A DNA stretch of 64,000 nucleotides from Actinokineospora inagensis DSM 44258. GTDB taxonomy: Bacteria > Actinomycetota > Actinomycetes > Mycobacteriales > Pseudonocardiaceae. The notes under the pieces are model-generated. The model ran no database searches. It was not told the origin of the DNA and saw only the letters and a list, made by a program, of their open reading frames with translations. Made by a program: the position numbers and the translations under genes. Positions 5,246 through 64,000 of the stretch are shown here, one piece after another. The stretch's first letter is position 1. Every line of letters begins with the position of its first letter. The DNA lies in assembly GCF_000482865.1 (NCBI RefSeq), contig NZ_AXWW01000051.1, forward strand, positions 1 through 64,000, in the 5' to 3' direction.

Positions 5246-6238
5246 ATGAGGTCCTTCCGGTCCCGGAACCCGGTGCCGATCGGCCTGGTCAGCCTGTTGA
5301 CCATCGGTCTGGTGCTGCTGGCCGCGGTCTACTCCGACGACCTGCCGATCATCGGCGGCGGCACGACCTACAGCGCCGAGTTCGCCGAGGCCGCCGGGCT
5401 GCGGCCGGACGACGAGGTGCGGATCGCCGGGGTGAAGGTCGGGTCGGTCTCGGACGTGTCGCTGGACCGGGACCGGGTGGTCGTCCGGTTCAAGGTCAAG
5501 GACGCCTGGGTCGGCGACCAGTCCCGGGCCGAGATCAAGATCAAGACCTTGCTGGGCCAGAAGTTCCTGGCGCTGGACCCGGTGGGCACCAAGGTCCTCG
5601 ACCCGGGCACCCGCATCCCGCGGGACCGCACGACCGCCCCCTACGACGTGCTGGAGGCGTTCCGCGGTCTGGCCGACACGGCCAACGACATCGACACGAC
5701 CCAGTTGGCCAAGAGCTTCGAGGTGCTCTCACAAACGTTTGCCGACACCCCCGGCGACGTGCGCGGCGCGCTCAACGGCCTGCAGTCGCTCTCGCGCACC
5801 ATCTCCTCGCGGGACCGGGAACTCGCCCACCTGCTGGCCAACACCAAGCAGATCTCCACGACCCTGGCCGACCGGGACGCCGAGGTCACCACGCTGCTCT
5901 CCGACGGCAGCCTGCTGCTCAACGAGCTCAACAACCGCAAGAACGCGATCGCCGCGCTGCTCACCGGCACCAAGGACCTCTCGACCCAGTTGCAGGGCCT
6001 GGTGTCGGACAACACCGCGCAGCTCGGCCCGGTGCTGCAGAACCTCGACCAGTTGACCGCCATGTTGCAGCGCAACCAGGACGCGCTGGCCGAGGGCATC
6101 AAGAAGTTCGCCCCGTTCGTCCGCCAGTTCAACAACGCGATCGGCACCGGCCGCTGGTTCGACAACTACATCTGCGGGCTGCTGCCGCCGTCGATCGGCC
6201 CGGTCAACCAGCAAGGCTGTCTGGGGGCCGGGAAATGA
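5246..6238 (+). CDS. mceC: MceC, MlaD-domain substrate-binding protein
   Basis: This is the third Mce subunit, 330 residues from the chosen ATG. The ATG at 5246 is preferred over a GTG at 5237 because the Shine-Dalgarno-like GAGGGGG at 5231-5237 sits 8 nt before the ATG but touches the GTG. One N-terminal transmembrane helix is followed by an MlaD domain with DDEVRIAGVKVGSV and a helical region. The C-terminus has paired cysteines (YICGLL and QQGCLG) like those of MceB. Confidence 0.88.
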   Translation: MRSFRSRNPVPIGLVSLLTIGLVLLAAVYSDDLPIIGGGTTYSAEFAEAAGLRPDDEVRIAGVKVGSVSDVSLDRDRVVVRFKVKDAWVGDQSRAEIKIKTLLGQKFLALDPVGTKVLDPGTRIPRDRTTAPYDVLEAFRGLADTANDIDTTQLAKSFEVLSQTFADTPGDVRGALNGLQSLSRTISSRDRELAHLLANTKQISTTLADRDAEVTTLLSDGSLLLNELNNRKNAIAALLTGTKDLSTQLQGLVSDNTAQLGPVLQNLDQLTAMLQRNQDALAEGIKKFAPFVRQFNNAIGTGRWFDNYICGLLPPSIGPVNQQGCLGAGK

Positions 6239-6245
6239 GCGCGCG

Positions 6246-7442
6246 ATGAGCACCTTCAGCACCAAGGCCCGCCGTGACGCCGCCCGGCTGGTGACCGTCG
6301 CCTGCGTGCTCGGGCTGGTGGTCGCGGCCGTGTTGTGGTGGCTGTTCAGCGAACCGAACTCCAAGCGCTACACCGCCGTCTTCGCGGGCGTGGTCGGGCT
6401 CTACGAGGACAACGACGTCCGGGTGCTTGGTGTCCGGGTCGGCACCATCGACAAGATCACCCCGCGCGGGGACCGGGTCGAGGTGGAGATGTCCGTGGAC
6501 CGGACCGTGCAGATCCCGGCCGACGCGCAGGCCGTGATCGTCGCGCCGTCGCTGGTGTCCGACCGGTACGTGCAGCTCACCCCCGCCTTCACCGGCGGCG
6601 CCGAGCTGGCGACCGGCGCGGTCATCCCCAGGGACCGCACGGCCGCCCCGCTGGAGGTCGACGACCTCTACGCCAGCCTCGCCCGGGTCAGCGAGACCCT
6701 AGGCCCCAACGGGGCCAACAAGGACGGCGCCCTGGCCGACCTGCTGAACACGCTGGCCAAGAACCTGGACGGCAACGGGCAGGCGGTGCACGACACCGTC
6801 ACCCAGCTCGGGCAGCTCAGCAGCACCCTGTCCGGCAACTCCGACGACCTGTTCGGCACGATCACCCAACTGCAGAAGTTCACCAGCACGCTGGCCGCCG
6901 ACGACGACAACGTGCGGGAGTTCACCGGCGAGCTGGCCGAGGCGTCGAAGTTCCTCTCCGGTGAGCGCGGCAACCTGGCCGAGGCCGTCGACCAGCTCGG
7001 CATCGCGCTGACCTCGGTGCGGCAGTTCATCAACGACAACCGGGGCCGGATCAAGTCCAATGTGGACAAGCTGGCCTCGGTGACCAGGGTGCTGGTCGAC
7101 CAGCGGGCCGCGCTCGCCGAGACGCTGGACGTGGCCCCGCTGGCGCTGAGCAACGTGATCAACACCTACAACGCCTCGTCCGGGACGCTCGACGCGCGCG
7201 CCGACCTCAACGAGCTGACCCAGCCGCCGATCGTCACCGTGTGCAAGCTGGTCCGCCAGGGCACCGCGAAACCGCTGCCGACGACGCTGGCCGACCTGTG
7301 CGACCAACTGGCCCCCGTGGTCCAGGGCGCGGTCCCGCTGCCGTCGCCCGCCCAGGTCATCGAGTCCATGCGGAACGGGAAGCTCCCGATCCTGCCGCTG
7401 CCCGCCGCCGGTGACATCTACTCGCTCGGGGGTGGCACATGA
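6246..7442 (+). CDS. mceD: MceD, MlaD-domain substrate-binding protein
   Basis: This is the fourth Mce subunit, 398 residues. It has an N-terminal transmembrane helix near residues 17-35, then an MlaD domain (DNDVRVLGVRVGTIDKI) and a long helical, glutamine- and asparagine-containing body. The gap to mceC is only 7 bp. Its stop overlaps the mceE start (ATGA). The C-terminal part is proline-rich. Confidence 0.9.
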   Translation: MSTFSTKARRDAARLVTVACVLGLVVAAVLWWLFSEPNSKRYTAVFAGVVGLYEDNDVRVLGVRVGTIDKITPRGDRVEVEMSVDRTVQIPADAQAVIVAPSLVSDRYVQLTPAFTGGAELATGAVIPRDRTAAPLEVDDLYASLARVSETLGPNGANKDGALADLLNTLAKNLDGNGQAVHDTVTQLGQLSSTLSGNSDDLFGTITQLQKFTSTLAADDDNVREFTGELAEASKFLSGERGNLAEAVDQLGIALTSVRQFINDNRGRIKSNVDKLASVTRVLVDQRAALAETLDVAPLALSNVINTYNASSGTLDARADLNELTQPPIVTVCKLVRQGTAKPLPTTLADLCDQLAPVVQGAVPLPSPAQVIESMRNGKLPILPLPAAGDIYSLGGGT

Positions 7443-19253: not shown

Positions 19254-19271
19254 TACCCCGCTCTGAGCGAA

Positions 19272-19305
19272 GACAACACCCCCGGCCACGGCCGGGGGTG
19301 TTGTC
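19272..19305 (+). terminator. Strong terminator hairpin after rpoC
   Basis: A perfect 15-bp stem (19272-19286 with 19291-19305) closes a CACG loop and is followed by GTTTCC. It lies 18 bp after the rpoC stop, so it probably ends the rpoBC transcript, although the T-tract is short. Confidence 0.85.
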
Positions 19306-19456
19306 GTTTCCGCGTGCTTTCCCGCCGGTGACCACTTTCACCGGCAATTTCACAGAACTTCCTTGTGCCGGACCGCGTTCCGCCGTTCTGCTGGGCGTAG
19401 TTGATCTACGCCTGGGGTTCCGGCGTGGCTGGATCCCCTGATGCCGAGGGAAGTTC

Positions 19457-20602
19457 GTGAACGCGCGCGCAGTGGTGCTCACCGTCGTGGGCGGGGGCCT
19501 CGCCCTCGTGGTGCTGGGGTTGGCGGTGCGCGCCGACGCCATCGACCTGGCGGTCTACCGGGGTGGCGCGGAGGTGGTGCGCTCCGGCGGCCACCTGTAC
19601 CGCGGCCCGGTCTGGAACGGGTTGTTGTTCACCTACCCGCCGTTCTCGGCCCTGCTGTTCACGCCGCTGGCCGTCATGTCCGGGACCGCGGCGAAAGTCC
19701 TTGCGGTGGTGGGGAACGGCGCGCTGCTGGTGTTCGTGGTCCGCCGATCCTGGCTGTCGCTGGGGGTTCGCGCGATCGCGCCGGTCGTCGGGGTCGTCGC
19801 CGCCCTGCTGCTGACCGAGACCGTGCACGCGAGTGTCTACGTTGGACAGATCAACTTGCTGCTCGTCGCGCTGGTGCTCGGAGATCTGACCGGGCGCGAC
19901 GGGGTGTGGTGGCGCGGCGTCGGAGTCGGTCTCGCCGCTGGGCTCAAGCTCACGCCGCTGATCTTCATCGGCTACCTGCTCGTGGTTCGCCGGTTCCGCG
20001 AGGCCGCCGTCGCCGCGACGACGGCGGCGGGCACGGTCATCCTCGGGTTCATCGTGCTGCCACTGGACTCCGCCGACTACTGGTTCGGCGGCATGTTCGC
20101 CGACACAGGTCGCATCTACGCCGACCTGACCTCGCCGCACAACCAGTCGATCCGCGGATTGTTGCTGCGCGGCGGTTTCCCGCCGTGGGTGTGGGCCGTC
20201 GCCGCGGTGGTCGTGTGCGCCGCCACCCTCGTCGTCGCGACCCAGCTCACCCGACGCGGTGATCGGCTGCTCGCGATCACGGTGGTGGGCTTGGGCGCGG
20301 CGGCGATCTCCCCGTGGTCGTGGGGGCACCACTGGGTGTGGGTGGCGCCCCTCGTCGTGGTCGTGGCCGATCGCCTGTGGCACAGGCGGTTCTGGTGGTG
20401 TGTACCGGCGGTGCTGGTTCTCGGCACCTTGCCGCTGGTCTTGGCGCTCGCCGACCCGCCAGACGGCTCGGGTCCCGCGGTCGTGACCGGCTTGCTCCAG
20501 TTCGTCGTCGGGAACCTCTACCTGTTGGTGTTCCTGGCCGTCTTGGCGGTGTCGGCGCGGGATCAGCCCCCCGTCGGCACGACGATCGGCGTGACCTCGT
20601 AG
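19457..20602 (+). CDS. GT87/DUF2029-family polyprenol-phosphate-dependent glycosyltransferase
   Basis: This 381-residue polytopic membrane protein resembles GT-C glycosyltransferases of family 87 (mannosyltransferases such as PimE). It has about nine to ten hydrophobic segments and an early extracytoplasmic loop with DLAVYRGGAEVVRSGGHLY, matching the family pattern of an acidic residue followed by GxxLY. It would transfer a sugar from a polyprenyl phosphate to an envelope glycolipid; the substrate cannot be told. GTG start with GAGGGAAG upstream. Its last 40 bp overlap the end of the convergent gene on the minus strand. Confidence 0.75.
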   Translation: MNARAVVLTVVGGGLALVVLGLAVRADAIDLAVYRGGAEVVRSGGHLYRGPVWNGLLFTYPPFSALLFTPLAVMSGTAAKVLAVVGNGALLVFVVRRSWLSLGVRAIAPVVGVVAALLLTETVHASVYVGQINLLLVALVLGDLTGRDGVWWRGVGVGLAAGLKLTPLIFIGYLLVVRRFREAAVAATTAAGTVILGFIVLPLDSADYWFGGMFADTGRIYADLTSPHNQSIRGLLLRGGFPPWVWAVAAVVVCAATLVVATQLTRRGDRLLAITVVGLGAAAISPWSWGHHWVWVAPLVVVVADRLWHRRFWWCVPAVLVLGTLPLVLALADPPDGSGPAVVTGLLQFVVGNLYLLVFLAVLAVSARDQPPVGTTIGVTS

Positions 20603-21441
20603 CTGGTCACGTTGTAGGTGGCGCGCGGGTACTGGCCGCCGTTGCCGTACACGCCGGGGCCTTCGCCGTAGCCGTAGGCGTACGGGTTGCCGATGGCGGT
20701 GATCGGGCCTGAGGTTCGGGGGACGTCGCTGGTGAAGAAGCCGGGGCTGGCGGCGTAGAGGCCGTTGGTGGTGGTGTAGGCGGCCACGTAGGTCGCGTAG
20801 GGCTTCAGGGCGACCGGGGTGTCGAAGGTGAAGTGGAAGGGGTCCGGGGACGATGTCGTCGTGGCGACGAGTGTGCCGTCGGTGGACCACAGGTGCCCGA
20901 CCGTGCCGCCGGTCGACGGGGCGGCGCCGTAGTAGGTGATTCCGGTGATGGTGCTGGGGCGGTCGACGAAGAACTTGAGGCCCAGCTCCATCGGGTGGTG
21001 CTCGTCGTACACCCCGGAGCTCTTGCTCGCGGGTAGGTAGCTGCACGGGCAGGTCACCGGGTCTGTGCGCGGGTAGCCGACCCGGATGTGGGCGAGCGGG
21101 AGGGCGACCGTGCGGAAGCTGTCGAGCACCACGCGGCCCCAGATGGTCAGCGGGCCGACCTGCCAGTCGTTCGGGGTGAGCGTGTACGTCCAGTCGGTCT
21201 GGCCTGCGCCCGCGATGACGAGGTAGTGGTTGGGGTCGCCGTCGGCGAGTTCGGTGTACTTCACGCCGTCGCCGGGGACACCCGCCGAGTGGCCGTGCAG
21301 GGTGATCGGTTGACCGGCGGTGACCAGCGTGTCGTCGGGCAGTCCGTCCAGCCACGCGGTGGGCGGTTCGGCGGCGTGGGCGGGGAGCTGGCCCAACAGC
21401 AGCAGCGGCAAGGCGAAGACAAGCGCGGCCAGGCGACGCAC
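20563..21441 (-). CDS. Secreted protein with DUF4082-like domain
   Basis: This 292-residue protein has a signal peptide (residues 1-23, ending in AHA). The middle part, about residues 135-250, follows the DUF4082 pattern (GLKFFVDRPSTITGITYY, then GHLWSTDGTLVA, then a TYVAAYTTTNGLYA stretch), a beta-sandwich domain in secreted actinobacterial proteins. The GTG start is set by AAGGAGG six bases upstream; the open frame continues further but lacks such a site. The 3' end overlaps the convergent glycosyltransferase gene by 40 bp. Its function is unknown; surface binding is a guess. Confidence 0.72.
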   Translation of the reverse strand: MRRLAALVFALPLLLLGQLPAHAAEPPTAWLDGLPDDTLVTAGQPITLHGHSAGVPGDGVKYTELADGDPNHYLVIAGAGQTDWTYTLTPNDWQVGPLTIWGRVVLDSFRTVALPLAHIRVGYPRTDPVTCPCSYLPASKSSGVYDEHHPMELGLKFFVDRPSTITGITYYGAAPSTGGTVGHLWSTDGTLVATTTSSPDPFHFTFDTPVALKPYATYVAAYTTTNGLYAASPGFFTSDVPRTSGPITAIGNPYAYGYGEGPGVYGNGGQYPRATYNVTSYEVTPIVVPTGG

Positions 21442-21752
21442 GGCACCCTCCTTGGCGGAAACCGGCCTTGGCGAAAACCGGTGCGCGACAAGGTAATCGA
21501 GTGCGTCGGACGGCGGAGCGGCCAGTCGGGTGACTAGTGGCGCGTGGCCCAGTGGGGCTTGCGCCGAGCGGCAGGCGCCCGGACGGGTGAGCCGGGGCCG
21601 GATATCCGTCCCCGCAACGGGATGAAGGTGTTCAACCGCCACCCGCGTGGCAGCGCGGTGCTCCCGGCGGGCACCATGGATCCCGGGCGGCCGTTGGTTG
21701 TCCACAAAGGATGTGGCCCCTGGCTGTCGTGAGCAGCCAGGGACCACGTCCG
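21442..21752. other. Noncoding region between two minus-strand genes
   Basis: No gene is supported in these 311 bases. It holds the ribosome binding site of the downstream secreted-protein gene, presumably its promoter, a TTGTCCACA nonamer matching the DnaA-box consensus at 21698-21706, and the terminator hairpin of the small gene at 21753-21944. Confidence 0.5.
21718..21742 (-). terminator. Hairpin terminator after the small minus-strand gene
   Basis: CCCTGGCTG (21718-21726) and CAGCCAGGG (21734-21742) form a perfect 9-bp stem around a 7-nt loop, 10 nt past the stop of the gene at 21753-21944. No long T-tract follows on the minus strand. Confidence 0.6.
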
Positions 21753-21944
21753 CTACTTGGCGAGCGCCGCGCTGGCCACCGTGACCAGCCGTTCCAGGCT
21801 CTCCGGTGCGCACACCATCTCGACCCCGTCGCGGCCCTCGCCGAACACGATGGCGATGGCCTTGTCGCCACACGGGTACGAGCGGATCGCGCAGTCGCTC
21901 GCCACCTCCAGGCCCGCACTGACCCGGATCTCTGTCGCGTTCAT
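21753..21944 (-). CDS. Small hypothetical protein, divergent to XRE regulator
   Basis: This 63-residue acidic protein has no recognised domain. It contains two cysteines (SDCAIRSYPCGD) and a C-terminal helix. A clear CAGGAGGG lies 4 nt upstream of the ATG and a hairpin follows the stop, so it looks like a real single-gene unit. It is transcribed away from the XRE/DUF5753 regulator and shares an AT-richer intergenic region with it, suggesting related control. Small genes near XRE/DUF5753-DUF397 sets are common in actinomycetes, but no function can be given. Confidence 0.6.
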   Translation of the reverse strand: MNATEIRVSAGLEVASDCAIRSYPCGDKAIAIVFGEGRDGVEMVCAPESLERLVTVASAALAK

Positions 21945-22085
21945 CCGACCCTCCTGTTTCGTCGACCAGTGCGTTCAACGTATAGCTATCAACCCAGCTC
22001 GATCTATAACACCATCGGGTGATATTGCTCAGGGTCACCGATGCGGCACACTGTGCAGCCTCAACGAGCACGGGAGAATCTGATC
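21945..22085. promoter_or_regulatory. Shared divergent promoter region of the XRE/DUF397 locus
   Basis: This 141-bp region lies between the divergent small gene and the XRE regulator and is AT-richer than its surroundings (for example TATAGCTATCAA near 21981). GGTGA and TCACC half-sites around 22019-22040 form a dyad that could be an XRE operator. A GGGAGA at 22072-22077 precedes the chosen GTG start of the regulator. Confidence 0.35.
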
Positions 22086-22955
22086 GTGGAACGCGTGGAC
22101 CCCTCGGCGCTGCGGTGGCTGATCGGTGTGGAGCTGACCAACTACCGCAAGCAGGCAGGCGTCTCCCAGGCGGAGGTCGGCAAGGCGCTCAAGATATCCG
22201 GCGGGATGGTCGCACACTTCGAGGTCGGCAGGCATTTGCCCTCACCGCAACAGATCGACGTGATGCTGACCCGCTACGGCGCCCCCACCTACGACGTCGA
22301 CCGCCTCACCTACCTCGCAGGCCGCGCCGACAAGTCAAGCTGGCTCGGCCGGTGGAACGACGTGATACCGGACTGGCTGCGCACCTACATCGGGTTGGAG
22401 GGCTTGGCTTCCCACGTCGTCACCTACGCGCCGCTGGTCCTGCACGCCCTGACCCAAACCCGCGACTATTCCGCAGGCGTGACCGCACCGAGTTCGCGCG
22501 TCCGGCCGGACCAGGAGGAGCGTTTGGTCGGCCTGCGGATGGAACGCCAGCAACGGGTCTTCAGCGACAAGAACCCATTGCACGTAACGATGATCGTCGA
22601 AGAGTCGGTACTCGATAGGCCAATCGGCGGCTCGGCCGAGGTAATGCGCGGCCAACTGGAGCACCTGCTTGCCCTGGGAGAACGAAGCAACGTCGCGATC
22701 CAGGTGCTGCCTACTTCGGTCGGTCGCCATGATGGGCTGGAGGGCAAGTTCACCCTGCTCCACTTCCTCGATGAGGATAGTCAGCAGCAGGCCAGGCCGG
22801 TGGTTTACGTGGAGATTCCGGATGACGCGATATACATCCAGGAACAGCGCCAAGTCGCGCAGTACACTCGGAATGCGGACCAGCTACGCACGGTGGCCCT
22901 GTCACCGGCAGAGTCCGCCGCCGCGATCCAGACCCGGCTGGCCGCCTTCACGTGA
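22086..22955 (+). CDS. XRE-family helix-turn-helix regulator with DUF5753 domain
   Basis: This 289-residue protein has an N-terminal XRE DNA-binding domain (about residues 10-68, with SQAEVGKALKISGGMVAHFEVGR as the helix-turn-helix) and a C-terminal DUF5753 domain (about 105-280, including QVLPTSVGRHDGLEGKFTLL). It belongs to the WhiJ-like regulators of actinomycetes, which act with small DUF397 proteins. The GTG at 22086 is preferred over an ATG at 22041 because GGGAGA lies 8 nt before it and the protein then starts close to the HTH. Five DUF397 genes follow directly. Confidence 0.88.
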   Translation: MERVDPSALRWLIGVELTNYRKQAGVSQAEVGKALKISGGMVAHFEVGRHLPSPQQIDVMLTRYGAPTYDVDRLTYLAGRADKSSWLGRWNDVIPDWLRTYIGLEGLASHVVTYAPLVLHALTQTRDYSAGVTAPSSRVRPDQEERLVGLRMERQQRVFSDKNPLHVTMIVEESVLDRPIGGSAEVMRGQLEHLLALGERSNVAIQVLPTSVGRHDGLEGKFTLLHFLDEDSQQQARPVVYVEIPDDAIYIQEQRQVAQYTRNADQLRTVALSPAESAAAIQTRLAAFT

Positions 22956-22969
22956 TCCCGGAGGGCACC

Positions 22970-23125
22970 ATGACCAGCACTTGGCGCAAGTCCACCCGCA
23001 GCAGCAACGGCAGCGACTGCGTGGAAGTCCGCAACGACCTGTCCGCCATCCGGGACTCCAAGAACCCCACCGGCCCAAGCCTCGCGGTCGACCTCCGTGC
23101 CTTGTCCCGTCACTTGAAGGGCTGA
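22970..23125 (+). CDS. DUF397 protein, copy 1 of 5
   Basis: This 51-residue protein has the DUF397 pattern: WRKSTRSSNGSDCVEVR followed by RDSKNPTGPSL. It starts 14 bp after the regulator with GGAGGG upstream. DUF397 proteins pair with XRE/DUF5753 regulators in actinomycete development and metabolism loci, and some pairs are proposed to act like toxin-antitoxin modules; the role here is not known. The C-terminal codons for LKG contain GAAGGG, which sits where the next gene needs a ribosome binding site. Confidence 0.82.
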   Translation: MTSTWRKSTRSSNGSDCVEVRNDLSAIRDSKNPTGPSLAVDLRALSRHLKG

Positions 23126-23128
23126 CCC

Positions 23129-23281
23129 ATGGTCACTTGGCGTAAGTCCACCCGCAGCAGCAACGGCACCGACTGCGTGGAGGTCCGCAACGACCTGTCC
23201 GCCATCCGGGATTCGAAGAACCCGGCTGGCCGGAGCATCGCGGTCGACCTTCGTGCCCTGTCGCGCCACCTGAGGGGCTGA
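23129..23281 (+). CDS. DUF397 protein, copy 2 of 5
   Basis: This 50-residue DUF397 paralogue starts MVTWRKSTRSSNGTDCVEV and differs from copy 1 mainly in an AGRSI segment in place of TGPSL. It begins 3 bp after copy 1. Its C-terminal LRG codons include GAGGGG, positioned as the ribosome binding site of copy 3. Confidence 0.82.
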   Translation: MVTWRKSTRSSNGTDCVEVRNDLSAIRDSKNPAGRSIAVDLRALSRHLRG

Positions 23282-23284
23282 CCG

Positions 23285-23437
23285 ATGGCCACCTGGCGCA
23301 AGTCCACCCGCAGCAACAACGGCAGCAACTGCGTGGAGGTCCGCAGCGACTTGTCTGCCGTCCGGGATTCGAAGAACCCCACCGGCCCGAGCCTCGCGGT
23401 CGACCTCCGCGCCCTGGCTCGTCACTTGAGGGGCTGA
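23285..23437 (+). CDS. DUF397 protein, copy 3 of 5
   Basis: This 50-residue DUF397 paralogue starts MATWRKSTRSNNGSNCVEV. It begins 3 bp after copy 2. From the middle onward its DNA is nearly the same as copies 4 and 5, marking the start of the 157-bp repeat period. The GAGGGG in its last codons precedes the start of copy 4. Confidence 0.82.
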   Translation: MATWRKSTRSNNGSNCVEVRSDLSAVRDSKNPTGPSLAVDLRALARHLRG

Positions 23438-23441
23438 TCCC

Positions 23442-23594
23442 ATGGTCACCTGGCGTAAGTCCAGCCGCAGCAACAACGGCATGGACTGCGTGGAGGTCCG
23501 CAGCGACTTGTCTGCCGTCCGGGATTCGAAGAACCCCACCGGCCCGAGCCTCGCGGTCGACCTCCGCGCCCTGGCTCGTCACTTGAGGGGCTGA
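23442..23594 (+). CDS. DUF397 protein, copy 4 of 5
   Basis: This 50-residue DUF397 paralogue starts MVTWRKSSRSNNGMDCVEV. Its DNA is identical to copy 5 over about the first 130 bases, so the two arose by a very recent tandem duplication. It begins 4 bp after copy 3 and again ends in LRG codons that supply GAGGGG for the next gene. Confidence 0.82.
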   Translation: MVTWRKSSRSNNGMDCVEVRSDLSAVRDSKNPTGPSLAVDLRALARHLRG

Positions 23595-23598
23595 TCCC

Positions 23599-23751
23599 AT
23601 GGTCACCTGGCGTAAGTCCAGCCGCAGCAACAACGGCATGGACTGCGTGGAGGTCCGCAGCGACTTGTCTGCCGTCCGGGATTCGAAGAACCCCACCGGC
23701 CCGAGCCTCGCGGTCGACCTCCGCGCCCTCGCCCGCCACCTCGCCCGCTGA
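23599..23751 (+). CDS. DUF397 protein, copy 5 of 5
   Basis: This 50-residue paralogue matches copy 4 except at its end, where ARHLRG is replaced by ARHLAR. With that change the GAGGGG seen at the end of copies 2-4 is lost; no gene follows within the array. A perfect 16-bp terminator stem starts 10 bp after its stop. Confidence 0.82.
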   Translation: MVTWRKSSRSNNGMDCVEVRSDLSAVRDSKNPTGPSLAVDLRALARHLAR

Positions 23752-23761
23752 CAACCCCCCA

Positions 23762-23800
23762 ATGACGGCCCCTGATCCCAACCTGATCAGGGGCCGTCAT
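23762..23800 (+). terminator. Perfect hairpin terminator after the DUF397 array
   Basis: A perfect 16-bp inverted repeat (23762-23777 with 23785-23800) encloses a 7-nt loop (CCAACCT) and lies 10 bp after the last DUF397 stop. It is followed by CCGTCTTCCC, a weak T-containing tail. It separates the DUF397 array from the deaminase cassette. Confidence 0.85.
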
Positions 23801-23841
23801 CCGTCTTCCCCTCCCTGCCCGCCGTCACAACCCTGGACCCC

Positions 23842-24538
23842 GTGTCCATCGCCGAGCACCTCGCTCAGCTCCGACGAACACTCACCGCCCTCACGCACCT
23901 CAAGTCCGCCGCTCAATCCCTCACCGACACCCTCACCCGCGGTGCACCACTGCGTCGACACCATCCTCACCGGCGCCGCCGGTCACACCCACGCCACCGA
24001 ACCCCTCCTCGCCGCCCGCTCCGCCGCCACTGCCCTCCTCACCACCCTCGCAGCGATCGAGCACCACCTCACCGCTTACCTCGGCCCCACCGCCCCGGAG
24101 ATCAGCCTCCCCAGGTCGACTGCTTCGCTCGACGCCGACCAGGTAGCCGCACTTCGCCGGGACATGCCGCCCGACTTGGTGAGGTGGCGCCAGCGGCCAC
24201 CCGGGTCGCCACGCCCCAAGACCCACGGTCGCTGGGTCGGTTCGGACGGAATGATCCACTCGGAGGTCAGCGGCCGCGACGAGAAGTACGAACACGCGGT
24301 GAAGTGGTACCAAGCCCGGTCCACCCAGATCCCGACTCGAACTTCTGATGTGGAAATCACACTCGCGGTGCACATGAGACTGTCGGAGATACGGTCGGTC
24401 ACCCTGGTGATCAACAATATGCCCTGCCCTGGCGAGTATGGTTGCGACGGGCAGATTCCCAAGATCCTGCCTAAAGGCTACTCCATGACCGTTCACGGTG
24501 CGCGTGGATTTCTCAAAACATATCGAGGAGAATCGTGA
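23842..24538 (+). CDS. DddA/SCP1.201-like deaminase, apparent +1 frameshift
   Basis: The C-terminal ~115 residues match the SCP1.201/DddA-like deaminase toxin family: HGRWVGSDG, a DVE triplet (24347-24355) where HxE is expected, VTLVINNMPC, GC at 24440-24445, then LPKGYSMTVHG. Such toxins deaminate cytosine in DNA. The N-terminal helix (SIAEHLAQLRRTLTALTHLK) reads from a GTG at 23842 in one frame, and the rest reads one base over from about 23941, so one inserted base near 23941 seems to break the gene. An internal GTG at 23942 would give a shorter intact product. No good ribosome binding site is seen. Its stop overlaps the first Imm1 gene (GTGA). Confidence 0.6.
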
Positions 24539-24915
24539 GCCCGATCAAGGCCTACTACGACTACGGCGACAAGGATGTCGCACTGCTCCCGGACTTGGCC
24601 GCCGTCCGGTTCCTCCTGGCCGAGATGCACCGGGACTCCCGCGACCACGACATCCCCTTGCTCGCCCAGTTGTACATCGACGGCGATGCCGCCACCCCGG
24701 AACTCGCCCTCGGCGTCCACGGTGATGTCGGCGTGCTTTCCTACACCGGTCGTTCCTGGCCCGGCCTGTGGCTCAGCGACAACGGCACCCCGGACAACGG
24801 CGAAACCGTCGACTACGAGTACCTGGGCAGCCCCACCGAGTTCCGCGTCAACAACCAGATCCCATACCCCCGAAATCCTCGCCGCCGCCGAGTTCTTCTT
24901 CGTATCCGGCGGTGA
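24535..24915 (+). CDS. Imm1-like immunity protein A1, 3' end frameshifted
   Basis: The first of five Imm1-type immunity genes after the deaminase, subtype A (KAYYDYGDKDVALLPDLAAV, then GDVGVLSYTGRSWPGLW). As it stands the 126-residue product ends in an arginine-rich tail. Compared with copy A2 there is one extra C in the CCCCC run at 24867-24871; removing it restores the ending EFFFVSGGDRPSSVAWQE and extends the gene to 24961, where its stop would overlap the next gene (ATGA). It begins with GTG preceded by CGAGGAG and overlaps the deaminase stop. Confidence 0.65.
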   Translation: MSPIKAYYDYGDKDVALLPDLAAVRFLLAEMHRDSRDHDIPLLAQLYIDGDAATPELALGVHGDVGVLSYTGRSWPGLWLSDNGTPDNGETVDYEYLGSPTEFRVNNQIPYPRNPRRRRVLLRIRR

Positions 24916-24957
24916 CCGACCTTCGTCAGTCGCGTGGCAGGAAGAGAGATGGGATAC

Positions 24958-25365
24958 ATGACTTTCGCGACTGCCTACTATTCCCGCGCCCACGCGCGGA
25001 CAGGAGTCCCGCTCGCCAGTGCCGAGGAGTTGGACGCTCTCCTGCTCCACCTGAGTACCCAGACCCGCCGGATCTTCGTGCAGGTCTATTTCGAGGACGA
25101 CCCCGACATGCCCGAGTTCGCCATCGGCATCGACGGTGACCACGGCGCCCTCTACTACTCCGGCCGCAACCACATCGGTGTCTGGTACACCCACAACCCC
25201 GCCATCACGTCGATCGGCCTCACCGACTACGAGAACTCGGACACCGCGATCGAGATGCCCGACAATGCCCGCCTCCCGCTCACCCAAATCCGCGCGGCCG
25301 CCGCCGAGTTCTTTCACTCTCACGGCGACCGCCCCACTTCGGTCGCCTGGCGCGAACAGGCGTGA
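24958..25365 (+). CDS. Imm1-like immunity protein B1
   Basis: This 135-residue protein is subtype B of the Imm1 array (MTFATAYYSRAHARTG, then FAIGIDGDHGALYYSGR, ending EFFHSHGDRPTSVAWRE). The Imm1 family features are the central glycine-aspartate strand region and the C-terminal GDRP. The ATG at 24958 is chosen by comparison with B2; ATGs upstream would add a few residues. GGAAGAG lies upstream. It overlaps the A2 start by 4 bp (GTGA). Confidence 0.7.
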   Translation: MTFATAYYSRAHARTGVPLASAEELDALLLHLSTQTRRIFVQVYFEDDPDMPEFAIGIDGDHGALYYSGRNHIGVWYTHNPAITSIGLTDYENSDTAIEMPDNARLPLTQIRAAAAEFFHSHGDRPTSVAWREQA

Positions 25366-25778
25366 ACGCTGTCTGTGCGTTCTACAGGTACGAAGATCGG
25401 GATGGTTTGCTCCTCGCGGACCTGGCCGCCGTACGTGCCCTGGTTGACCGAGTCCGGCAAGACTCCGTCCGCTACGACGCCCCCCTGTTCACCCAGTGGT
25501 GCGTCGACGGCGACGCCGATTCCCCGGAGTTCTGCGTCGGCGTCGACGGCGACGTTGGCGTGTTGTCCTACACGGGTCGTGCTTGGCCGGGCTTGTGGTC
25601 GAGCCACAACGGCACCCCGGACACCGGCGAAGTCGTCACCTACAGCTACATGTCGAACGCCACCGAGTTCTCGACCAACAATCAAATCCCCTACCCCGAA
25701 GTCCTCGCCGCCGCCGAGTTCTTCTTCGTATCCGGTGGTGACCGACCTTCGTCAGTCGCGTGGCAGGAAGAGAAATGA
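25362..25778 (+). CDS. Imm1-like immunity protein A2
   Basis: This 138-residue intact subtype A protein (VCAFYRYEDRDGLLLADLAAV, GDVGVLSYTGRAWPGLW, ending EFFFVSGGDRPSSVAWQEEK) serves as the reference showing the frameshift in A1. It starts with GTG inside the B1 stop and has no clear ribosome binding site, so it probably depends on coupled translation. Its 3' end is nearly identical in DNA to that of A1. Its stop overlaps B2 (ATGA). Confidence 0.72.
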   Translation: MNAVCAFYRYEDRDGLLLADLAAVRALVDRVRQDSVRYDAPLFTQWCVDGDADSPEFCVGVDGDVGVLSYTGRAWPGLWSSHNGTPDTGEVVTYSYMSNATEFSTNNQIPYPEVLAAAEFFFVSGGDRPSSVAWQEEK

Positions 25779-26182
25779 CCTTCGCGACTGCCTACTATTC
25801 CCGCGTCCACGAGTCGGTGGGAATACCGCTCGCCAGTGCCGAGGAGTTGGACGCCCTGCTGGTCGATCTCAGCACTCAGCCGTACCCGATCGCCGTCCAG
25901 GTCTATTTCGAGGATGACCCCACCACCCCCGAGTTCGCCATCGGCGTCGACCGCGATCACGGTGTCCTCTACCACTCCGGTCGCAGCCACCACGGTATCT
26001 GGTATTCCCACGACCCCACCACGTCGACCGCCGGTGTCACCGAATACGAGAACATGGACACCCCGGTCGAGATGCCCGACAGCGCCCGCCTCCCCCTCAC
26101 CCAGATCCGCGCCGCCGCGGCCGAGTTCTTCCACTCCCGAGGCGATCGCCCCACCTCGATCGCCTGGCGCGAACAGACGTGA
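25775..26182 (+). CDS. Imm1-like immunity protein B2
   Basis: This 135-residue subtype B protein is closely similar to B1 (MTFATAYYSRVHESVGIPLASAEELDALL). It has an ATG start with GGAAGAGA directly upstream and overlaps A2 and A3 by 4 bp on either side. It belongs to the second A-B unit of the array. Confidence 0.7.
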   Translation: MTFATAYYSRVHESVGIPLASAEELDALLVDLSTQPYPIAVQVYFEDDPTTPEFAIGVDRDHGVLYHSGRSHHGIWYSHDPTTSTAGVTEYENMDTPVEMPDSARLPLTQIRAAAAEFFHSRGDRPTSIAWREQT

Positions 26183-26592
26183 AAGCGATCCGGGCTTTCT
26201 ATCGCTACGAAGACGAGGACGGCCACCTTCTCGCCGACCTGGCTGCGGTTCGGGCCATGGTGGAGCGGGTGCGTGCGGACTCCGTGGCGTACGACGCCCC
26301 GTTGCTCAGCCTCTGGTACATCGACGGCGATGACGACACCCCGGAGTTCGGGGTCGGGGTTCACGGTGACGTCGGTGTGTTGTCCTATACCGGCCCGGGT
26401 CTGTGGTCCAGCCACAACGGCGATCTTGCCGCCGGTGAGCCGATCATCTACAGCTACATGAGCAACGCGTCCGAGTTCCCCGCTTGCGCCCAGATCCCCT
26501 ACGCCGACGTCCTCGCCGCCGCCGAAGCGTTCTTCACCTCGGGGGGTGACCGGCCCGGGATGGTGGTCTGGCGGGAGGAAGGGGCCGGGTAG
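26179..26592 (+). CDS. Imm1-like immunity protein A3
   Basis: This 137-residue subtype A protein closes the array (IRAFYRYEDEDGHLLADLAAV). It lacks the RSW residues before PGLW and ends GGDRPGMVVWREEGAG, so it is the most divergent A copy. It starts with GTG inside the B2 stop without an obvious ribosome binding site. No B partner follows. Confidence 0.7.
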   Translation: MKAIRAFYRYEDEDGHLLADLAAVRAMVERVRADSVAYDAPLLSLWYIDGDDDTPEFGVGVHGDVGVLSYTGPGLWSSHNGDLAAGEPIIYSYMSNASEFPACAQIPYADVLAAAEAFFTSGGDRPGMVVWREEGAG

Positions 26593-26995
26593 GCTGGGGT
26601 GGGCGGGTCACGGAGAGCGACGTCACACGACGGCATGATGGTTGCCACGCGTTCGGGTGGACCAACCGGAGCGCACCCGGGGTACCCCCGTTTTGACCTC
26701 CCCGTCACGACCAAGGTATCTTTGCTACTCGTGCCCGACCCATGTCGGGTCGGTCCGTGTGCCTGTGCCGCGCGGTCCGCTTGGCAGGCGTTCGCTCGAA
26801 TGTCGCCGGGCGGACTCCTGCCAGTCACGCCGGAGTTCCTCCCGAACCCCGTTGGGATGATTTTCTTCCCGTGCGGGTGCCGCGAGCGAGGGCGACACGC
26901 CCGACCTCGGGGGGCGGGCGGAAGAGCAGGAACGCAAGTACACAGTGCCTTCGGCGCCCCGCGCGGGTGTCGGGAGTCAAAGAGAAAGCCGGTCT
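26593..26995 (+). promoter_or_regulatory. Upstream region and long leader of the str operon
   Basis: This 403-nt stretch precedes rpsL. It carries the promoter candidate at 26693-26722 and would give a leader of about 265 nt. GTGTCGGGAGTC and AGAGAAAG lie shortly before the rpsL ATG. GC-rich dyads are present but I cannot define one clear regulatory hairpin. Short open frames here have no support. Confidence 0.5.
26693..26722 (+). promoter_or_regulatory. Candidate str operon promoter, TTGACC-18-TATCTT
   Basis: TTGACC (26693-26698) is separated by 18 nt from TATCTT (26717-26722), a good match to the housekeeping actinobacterial promoter. Transcription would begin near 26729. Confidence 0.6.
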
Positions 26996-61760: not shown

Positions 61761-64000
61761 GTGAGCACGCTGCAGTTCAAGCGGTCGCCCCGACTCGCCG
61801 CGCCGCGCCAGCCCGGCGGCGAGGTCCACCTCGAACCACCGCCCGAGGTGCCCAGGGTCATCCCCGGCAACATCGTGATGAAGCTGCTGCCCGGCGTCAT
61901 GATCGTCGCCTCGGTCGGCATGATGGTGTTCATGTTCATGGTGGGCGGCAAGAACCCCACCTCGCTCCTGTTCGGCGGCATGTTCCTGATGTCGACCGTC
62001 GGCATGATGGCGGGCGGCATGGGCGGGCGCGGCGGCGGCCAGAAGAAGGCCGAGATGAACGAGGACCGCAAGGACTACCTGCGCTACCTCGGCCAGATGC
62101 GCGACCGGGCCCGCGAGGCCGCGCTCGACCAGCGCGCCTCCCTGGAGTGGACGCACCCGGACCCGCAGGCGCTGTGGTCGATCGCCACCAGCAGGCGGAT
62201 GTGGGAGCGCCGCCAGGCCGACTCGGACTTCTGCCACCTGCGCGTCGGCCGCGGCTCGCAGCGGCTGGCCACCCGGCTCGTCCCGCCGCAGACCGGCCCG
62301 GTCGACGAGCTGGAGCCGATCGCCACGCTGGCGCTGCGCCGGTTCGTCCGCGCCCACTCGATCGTGCCGGACCTGCCCATCCAGGTCGCCGTGCGCGGGT
62401 TCGCCGCCGTCGGCCTCGCGGGCGACAAGGCGCTCACCCGCGGCCTCACCCGTGCCCTGCTGGCCCAGTTGGTCACCTTCCACACCCCGGACGACGTGCT
62501 CATCGCCGTGGTCACCTCGGGCAAGGCCAAGGCCGAGTGGGAATGGGCGAAGTGGCTGCCGCACGTCCAGCACCCCACCCTGGTCGACGGCATCGGCCAG
62601 TTGCGGATGATGGCCGGTTCGCTGGCCCAGATCGAGTCCTGGCTGGACGAGGAGCTGCGCGACCGGCAGCGGTTCACCCGCAACGCCCCGCCGCAGCCCG
62701 ACCAGCCGCACGTGGTCATCGTCATCGACGACGGCGAGGTCACCCGCGAGGAACAGATCATCCTGGAGGAGGGCCTGGTCGGGGTCACCCTGCTCGACCT
62801 GTCCGAGTGCCTCGGCAACCTCACCGCCCGGCGCGGCCTGCGCCTGGTGGTCGAGGCCGACCGGCTCGGCGCCCGCAGCGCCTCCGGAGTGGAGTGGTTC
62901 GCCGCGCCGGACACGCTCACCGTCGCCGAGGCGGAGGCGTTGGCGCGCAAGCTGTCCCCGTACCGGCTCAGCGCCACCGCCGCCGACTCCGGCGACGAGG
63001 AACCGCTGCTGTCCAACCCGACGCTGCTCGAACTGCTCGGCATCCCGGGCGACCCGATGACCTTCGACGTGCAGCAGGCGTGGCGGCCCCGGCCGGTGCG
63101 CGACCGCTACCGGGTCCCGTTCGGCGTCGGCGAGTTCGGCCAGGCCGTCGAGCTGGACATCAAAGAGGCCGCCATGGAGGGCATGGGCCCGCACGGCCTG
63201 TGCATCGGCGCCACCGGGTCCGGCAAGTCCGAGTTCCTGCGCACCCTGGTGCTGGGCATGCTGTCCACGCACTCGTCGTCCACGTTGAACTTCGTGCTGG
63301 TCGACTTCAAGGGCGGCGCGACCTTCCTCGGTCTGGACAGCGCCCCGCACGTCGCCGCGGTCATCACCAACCTGCAGGGCGACCTCACCCTGGTCGACCG
63401 GATGAAGGACGCGCTGGCGGGCGAGATGAACCGCCGCCAGGAGGCGCTGAAGAACGGCGGCAACTTCAAGAACGTCTGGGAGTACGAGAAAGCGCGCGAG
63501 AACGGCGCCGACCTCGACCCGCTGCCCGCGCTGTTCATCGTGGTCGACGAGTTCTCCGAACTGCTCTCGGCCAAGCCGGACTTCATCGACCTGTTCGTCG
63601 CCATCGGTCGGCTCGGCCGGTCGCTGCAGATGCACATGTTGCTCGCGTCGCAGCGGTTGGAGGAGGGCAAGCTGCGCGGCCTCGACTCGCACCTGTCCTA
63701 CCGGATCGGCCTGAAGACGTTCTCCGCGGCCGAGTCCCGCGCCGCCATCGGCGTGCCGGACGCGTTCGAACTGCCGTCGATCCCCGGCTCCGGCTACCTG
63801 AAGTTCGACACGAGCACCATGGTGCGGTTCAAGGCCGCGTACGTGTCCGGTCCGTACCGCCCCGCCGGGATGCAGGCCGCCGGTCCGGCCATCGCGGTCA
63901 GCGGGGACCGCCGGGCCAAGCTGTTCGTGCCGGACTACGTGGAGATCCCGAAGGAACCGGAGACGCCGCTGGAGCCGGTCCGGGAGGAGAAGAAACCCGA
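61761..64000 (+). CDS. eccC: EccC, FtsK/SpoIIIE-type ATPase of type VII secretion (partial, cut by window end)
   Basis: This is the motor ATPase of ESX. Two transmembrane helices lie at about residues 45-85, followed by the DUF region and the first FtsK-like ATPase domain with Walker A GATGSGKS (residues 483-490) and Walker B-like LFIVVDEFSELL. The frame is open to the window edge (about 746 residues), so the second and third ATPase domains lie outside. GTG start with GGAGAGG 10 nt upstream. The gene follows the small membrane protein. Confidence 0.94.
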   Translation, partial: MSTLQFKRSPRLAAPRQPGGEVHLEPPPEVPRVIPGNIVMKLLPGVMIVASVGMMVFMFMVGGKNPTSLLFGGMFLMSTVGMMAGGMGGRGGGQKKAEMNEDRKDYLRYLGQMRDRAREAALDQRASLEWTHPDPQALWSIATSRRMWERRQADSDFCHLRVGRGSQRLATRLVPPQTGPVDELEPIATLALRRFVRAHSIVPDLPIQVAVRGFAAVGLAGDKALTRGLTRALLAQLVTFHTPDDVLIAVVTSGKAKAEWEWAKWLPHVQHPTLVDGIGQLRMMAGSLAQIESWLDEELRDRQRFTRNAPPQPDQPHVVIVIDDGEVTREEQIILEEGLVGVTLLDLSECLGNLTARRGLRLVVEADRLGARSASGVEWFAAPDTLTVAEAEALARKLSPYRLSATAADSGDEEPLLSNPTLLELLGIPGDPMTFDVQQAWRPRPVRDRYRVPFGVGEFGQAVELDIKEAAMEGMGPHGLCIGATGSGKSEFLRTLVLGMLSTHSSSTLNFVLVDFKGGATFLGLDSAPHVAAVITNLQGDLTLVDRMKDALAGEMNRRQEALKNGGNFKNVWEYEKARENGADLDPLPALFIVVDEFSELLSAKPDFIDLFVAIGRLGRSLQMHMLLASQRLEEGKLRGLDSHLSYRIGLKTFSAAESRAAIGVPDAFELPSIPGSGYLKFDTSTMVRFKAAYVSGPYRPAGMQAAGPAIAVSGDRRAKLFVPDYVEIPKEPETPLEPVREEKKP

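Follow-up and report, generated by a model that had tools for sequence, protein, structure and literature searches.

Five Imm1-type immunity genes of two alternating types behind a frame-disrupted DddA-like deaminase gene in Actinokineospora inagensis

Why should a single bacterial locus carry five tandem immunity genes of two types behind a toxin gene that is not open from start to end? The question is raised by a 64,000-nucleotide stretch of Actinokineospora inagensis DSM 44258 (contig NZ_AXWW01000051.1, positions 1 to 64,000 of the forward strand; here called the window), which belongs to a draft genome of 7.28 Mb in 97 contigs. Between genes that we take, from their sequence, to be rpoC and rpsL, a DddA-like deaminase gene is followed directly by five Imm1-type genes in the order A-B-A-B-A. 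We consider it probable that the locus is a homogeneous polyimmunity bank of DddI-like (Imm1) inhibitors directed against foreign DddA-like toxins with a D-x-E zinc motif; that such a bank would protect against foreign deaminases is something we infer.

All five genes lie on the plus strand and match the Pfam Imm1 profile (PF14430, length 125) above its cut-off of 22.4 bits, with scores of 36.2 for A1, 68.0 for B1, 69.9 for A2, 70.0 for B2 and 70.4 for A3. The first, A1 (24535..24915), is truncated in its own frame, which stops after 126 amino acids and matches profile positions 12-100; the region behind it that resembles a type A C-terminus lies in another frame, continues to 24961 and, on the A2 model, contains the final helix (111-124) and the final strand (134-136). 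B1 (24949..25365), A2 (25362..25778), B2 (25775..26182) and A3 (26179..26592) are intact. For B1, a start at ATG 24949 is more likely than the alternative at 24958. Shine-Dalgarno-like matches stand 4-6 bases before the starts of A1, B1 (from ATG 24949) and B2, and no such match was found upstream of A2, A3 or the GTG 23842 of the deaminase gene. Overlaps of four bases occur between the deaminase gene and A1 and at three of the four junctions of the array (B1/A2, A2/B2 and B2/A3), and no toxin gene intervenes. At the remaining junction A1 leaves a gap before B1 in its own frame, and an ATGA overlap exists only in the other frame, because that is where the type A-like end of A1 lies. Since A2 and A3 begin within GTGA overlaps and lack ribosome-binding sites, their translation may be coupled to that of the preceding B gene. 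The proteins of both types are small and acidic, types A and B are 27-38% identical, and the predicted folds of A2 and B2 each match DddI (PDB 6U08).

The deaminase gene (23842..24538, plus strand) begins at GTG 23842 in one frame, in a region resembling the start of an intact relative gene, and carries its catalytic domain (Pfam match 24164-24502) in another frame, which ends at 24538. The match to the DddA-like profile PF14428 scores 91.3-92.9 bits against a cut-off of 25. No single open frame spans the gene, which is whole in the relative stretch L033. The sequence-only reading had called five Imm1-type genes behind a DddA/SCP1.201-like deaminase gene, and the two profile searches bear this out (91.3 bits for the deaminase), as the fold predictions for A2 and B2 do. 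Its A-B-A-B-A order and its start coordinates also stand, save that of B1, given as 24958, and so does its observation that the B genes have ribosome-binding sites of their own and that A2 and A3 do not, to which A1 can be added as a further gene with a site. Its claim that 4-bp overlaps join all the genes fails at A1/B1, and it was incomplete in that it passed over the split of the deaminase gene between two frames and the truncation of A1 at 24915.

The same reading described the two A-B units as near-identical, which they are not: identity is 78.1% over 817 aligned sites, and only a tract over the A1/B1 junction (24865..24988) and its partner over the A2/B2 junction (25692..25805) agree at 96.5%, over 114 aligned sites. 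Of 5000 shuffles, by site or by triplet, 0 or 1 reached the score of this tract at mismatch penalties of 5 and 8. Plain constraint is not the cause, because A2 and A3 share 0.52-0.75 there (60-base windows, type A part), and the pattern in the letters suggests recombination or gene conversion as the likely source. At the protein level, A1 and A2 are 59% identical over 111 codons, A2 and A3 71%, and B1 and B2 73%. Third-codon-position identity is 0.69 for A1/A2 (95% range 0.61-0.77) and 0.76 for B1/B2 (0.69-0.83), and lower for A2/A3 (0.54; 0.44-0.63); these values fit a single duplication of an A-B unit and an older A3. A1 has accumulated more unique changes than either of its sisters (18 against 7 for A2, p 0.043; 21 against 7 for A3, p 0.013), and no rate difference is seen between B1 and B2. 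Mismatches at first and second versus third positions stand at 67:34 for A1/A2, the 2:1 expected without constraint, and at 41:50 for A2/A3 (p 2.9e-5), a clear sign of constraint.

These figures bear on a rather unlikely alternative, namely that the array merely reflects tandem amplification and decay at this place, its extra copies being redundant, destined for loss and without added specificity. A1 is truncated and changing at a neutral-like ratio, the toxin gene is broken, and neighboring DUF397-like genes have also been amplified (five here versus two in G003, a genome of another species of the genus, as counted by eye). However, A2 and A3 are clearly constrained, four of the five Imm1 genes are intact, and the distance between A and B is too great for simple redundant copies.

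How unusual the array is can be judged within the genus, where Pfam Imm1 and DddA-like matches were listed in 16 genomes and the stretches around the Imm1 matches were taken. An iterated profile applied to these stretches gave 116 Imm1 and 73 DddA-like hits, and hits on the same strand with gaps of up to 600 bases were joined into clusters, 106 of which contain Imm1. A single DddA-like hit covering at least 90 of 109 positions accompanies a single Imm1 hit in 46 of the 106, and a near-complete DddA-like hit accompanies two Imm1 hits in three; in 16 the DddA-like gene is broken or partial, and a further 40 lack a DddA-like hit within reach, one of them containing two Imm1 genes. The array here is the only cluster with more than two Imm1 hits. 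Among the 15 other genomes, which represent other species of the genus, a module of DddA-like and Imm1 genes occurs in the stretch read before rpsL in G003 alone, with one Imm1 gene (the stretch of G014 stopped short of rpoC). Comparing copy numbers among relatives, as the sequence-only reading had proposed, therefore sets a single gene in G003 against five here, and the number varies between species.

The survey also bears on the idea that the locus is a working toxin-immunity pair with spare antidotes, its frame breaks being sequencing errors, which we regard as rather improbable. The genome is a draft in 97 contigs, and the catalytic domain is well conserved (92.9 bits). Against this, the neighboring long frames read through without breaks: those that we take, again from their sequence, to be rpoC, rpsL, rpsG, fusA and tuf are unbroken throughout in the list of open reading frames. 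In addition, DddA-like genes of this genus are often broken or partial (16 of the 106 clusters), so that decay is a natural outcome there. The likelihoods that we attach to the alternatives are not exclusive, and the one based on sequencing errors partly overlaps the reading that we favor.

The zinc site of the deaminase reads D-V-E where DddA has H-x-E, and both cysteines are kept. Of the 73 DddA-like rows from the genus, 15 carry D-x-E, 45 H-x-E and one H-x-K, and the site is not covered in 12. One survey writes the deaminase toxin motif as [HCD]xE (PMC3482391), and another paper gives the DddA replacement H1345C as abolishing activity (PMC10442228). We considered whether D-x-E marks the loss of an active site and rejected this because the motif also occurs in whole genes, such as those of L033 and L117. 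On a tree of 97 of the 116 Imm1 hits (shorter ones were dropped), A1-A3 form a clade (100/95) with the single Imm1 gene of G003, which is positionally equivalent and stands behind an intact deaminase gene. B1 and B2 form a clade of their own (100/100) on a long branch; type B falls in the same large clade, and its path-nearest relatives after its own sister, L155 and L174, both have D-x-E partners. The partner motif clusters on the tree, requiring 5 changes compared with shuffled means of 15.8 with the rows of the window and 11.9 without them. Across the genus, DddA-like deaminases with D-x-E make up a branch whose immunity partners come from one part of the Imm1 tree.

Type B was found nowhere outside the window in the searches made. 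In 390 family genomes, queried with B2 and with at most 10 candidates per genome scored, the best among the matches listed is 40% identical and is the A-type gene of G003. In 397 order genomes, a set that overlaps the former, the B1 query (E-value 1e-12) gave matches of 33-39%; one peptide pattern, scanned over genome contigs, found three loci at 34-37%; plasmids yielded one match, at 28.7%, and phages none. This absence depends on these particular searches, and records near the source genome may be missing from some of them.

Imm1 genes do occur in tandem elsewhere. Seven such loci (L138, L146, L167 and L237-L240) have copies that are 56-89% identical within the locus. Among 20 family-genome stretches, picked from the better or paired B2 matches, only L240 has three tandem Imm1 genes: at 5913-7247 in G377, a genome of another genus, these stand behind a DddA-like gene, belong to a single type and share 60-64% identity. 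In L243 (5121-6516), from a genome of another genus, a partial DddA-like gene precedes two unlike Imm1 genes (30% identical) that lie on one strand about 290 bases apart, and L184 has two unlike genes, 27% identical, about 1.3 kb apart; the pairs in L241 (49%) and L242 (44%) are at least 1.2 kb apart. The notion that tandem Imm1 genes elsewhere always belong to a single type was dropped in view of L243 and L184. Because of these unlike pairs and the tandem loci, neither tandem Imm1 genes nor the presence of two types is unique; among the loci seen, it is the five genes and their alternation that are special to this array. In searches of the open-licence literature, none of the papers listed dealt with tandem Imm1 arrays of this genus.

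The array can be compared with several known systems. Closest is DddI (DddAI), the inhibitor of Burkholderia cenocepacia DddA: it is acidic, belongs to the same family by profile and has the same fold as predicted here, and the partner toxins are of one deaminase family. DddI is described as the one immunity determinant of its toxin (PMC7901873), whereas here there are five tandem genes of two types, and the partner deaminase carries D-x-E rather than the H-x-E of DddA. Zhang et al. (2012, PMC3482391) tabulate Imm1 with SCP1.201 deaminases in Actinobacteria, and section 39 of that survey describes homogeneous polyimmunity loci, of which the present locus bears the anatomical marks: tandem, same-strand immunity genes of one family, at least four of them, with no toxin gene inside. 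It differs in that a toxin gene stands directly before the array and two types alternate, and Imm1 is not among the prominent families named in that section. The esaG and tipC arrays of Firmicutes type VII secretion systems are likewise strings of non-identical immunity genes, in which copy number changes when short, highly similar blocks recombine (PMC9484751). The pattern here is similar, although the genes are Imm1 and the block extends across the boundary between two gene types, which makes a whole A-B unit the copied piece.

Last, the Tde5 locus has two immunity proteins for one toxin gene, Tdi5a and Tdi5b, which are described as structurally distinct and bound to separate surfaces of the toxin (PMC13392607), whereas A and B share one predicted fold. 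This precedent lends some support to a distinctly unlikely alternative, in which A and B are two parts of one defense against the same toxin, either a heteromer or inhibitors of different faces, and were duplicated as a unit. It would be in keeping with the alternation of A and B, the duplication of the unit, the overlap of B with A without a ribosome-binding site, and the two unlike genes adjoining in L243. However, the A-B pair is not a conserved unit, type B having been found nowhere else in the searches made; a near-complete catalytic domain with one Imm1 hit is the arrangement in 46 of 106 clusters; and A2 and B2, having the same predicted fold, would be expected on the same face of the toxin. 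We give only a small chance to a version in which A and B form a same-fold pair acting together on one D-x-E deaminase, a two-key cassette whose A-B operon unit was amplified and homogenized. A programmed frameshift at A1 or the toxin gene is very unlikely.

We therefore favor the polyimmunity bank, and the sequence-only reading, which offered either an A-B pair or an immunity bank, is partly supported. The locus probably began as an ordinary DddA-like toxin gene with one type A immunity gene, as in G003, and would then have gained the second Imm1 type and a further A copy. Duplication of the A-B unit, which the third codon positions support, may have been followed by recombination that evened out the A/B junction of both units, as the identity tract suggests. 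Today the toxin gene and A1 are frame-disrupted, while B1, A2, B2 and A3 are intact. The A and B proteins would inhibit incoming DddA-like deaminases by binding to their active-site face and mimicking DNA, as DddI does. If A and B between them counter two variants of the D-x-E toxin branch, from kin or competitors, the array could protect its host without a working toxin of its own.

Several observations weigh against this reading. At a mismatch penalty of 3, the best fragment shared by the two units is not the short tract but one of 640 sites at 82%. The protein tree groups A1-A3 without fixing their order, and A2 and A3 are closest by path, which alone would favor a different order of duplications; their closeness arises because A1 changed fast. 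Constraint between B1 and B2 is weak (position mismatches 43:32, p 0.088), and the placing of type B on the tree, on a branch of length 1.06, is without firm support. The A2 fold comes from a seven-sequence alignment, and other models go down to a predicted local distance difference test score of 60.9. The counts over 106 clusters take in contig ends and fragments, and the clustering of partner motifs, although as low in 0 of 500 label shuffles each time, is not fully corrected for kinship. Finally, the breaks in the toxin gene and A1 could be errors of the draft sequence.

The gap between rpoC and rpsL (19254-26995 here) ranges from 1.6 to 9.4 kb in 15 of the 16 genus genomes, counting only those with both ends inside the stretch read (L032, in which rpoC was not reached, is left out), and this range marks it as a variable cargo site in the genus. 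Upstream of the module, on the plus strand, is an XRE/DUF5753 regulator gene (22041..22955; Pfam HTH_31 and DUF5753), 89% identical to its counterpart at the equivalent place in G003 and with matches of 64-84% in the gap of four other genus genomes (tblastn). Five tandem small DUF397-like genes follow (22970..23751, plus strand), with copies 156-157 bases apart that share 85-96% identity with a reference copy; only the first three were submitted to Pfam, and all three match DUF397. The same locus has thus amplified two unrelated gene families, DUF397-like and Imm1. A role as toxin-antitoxin systems has been proposed for XRE-DUF397 pairs, and in Streptomyces one such pair proved to be an activator of antibiotic production (PMC10364602). 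Between the DUF397-like genes and the deaminase gene lies a long perfect hairpin (23762..23800, plus strand; -31.9 kcal/mol, z -7.9), which has no T run and is absent from the list of the terminator scan. G003 also has a hairpin behind its DUF397 genes, of different sequence (L033 stretch; -37.7 kcal/mol, z -5.3), and there a further stretch of DNA separates it from the toxin gene. Because both genomes have a hairpin at this point, the regulator part and the toxin part are probably separate transcripts. On the minus strand, a long frame with a DUF4082 domain occupies 20566-22071. Delivery of the toxin by a type VII secretion system was also considered. The genome contains three EccC matches over cut-off, including one within the window at 61830-63857, but at its N-terminus the L033 toxin reaches WXG100 only at an E-value of 0.058, far below cut-off.

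What is new here is an Imm1 array with two alternating types, duplication of the unit and an apparently lost toxin. DddA-derived enzymes serve as base editors (PMC10442228), and inhibitors with other specificities could therefore be useful; the array offers natural material on the specificity of DddI-like inhibitors and on the activity of the D-x-E branch. If the reading that we favor is true, the locus would illustrate the growth of an immunity bank against DNA deaminase toxins, through duplication of a two-type unit and recombination at the gene junction, together with the decay of the toxin and of the immunity copy nearest to it.
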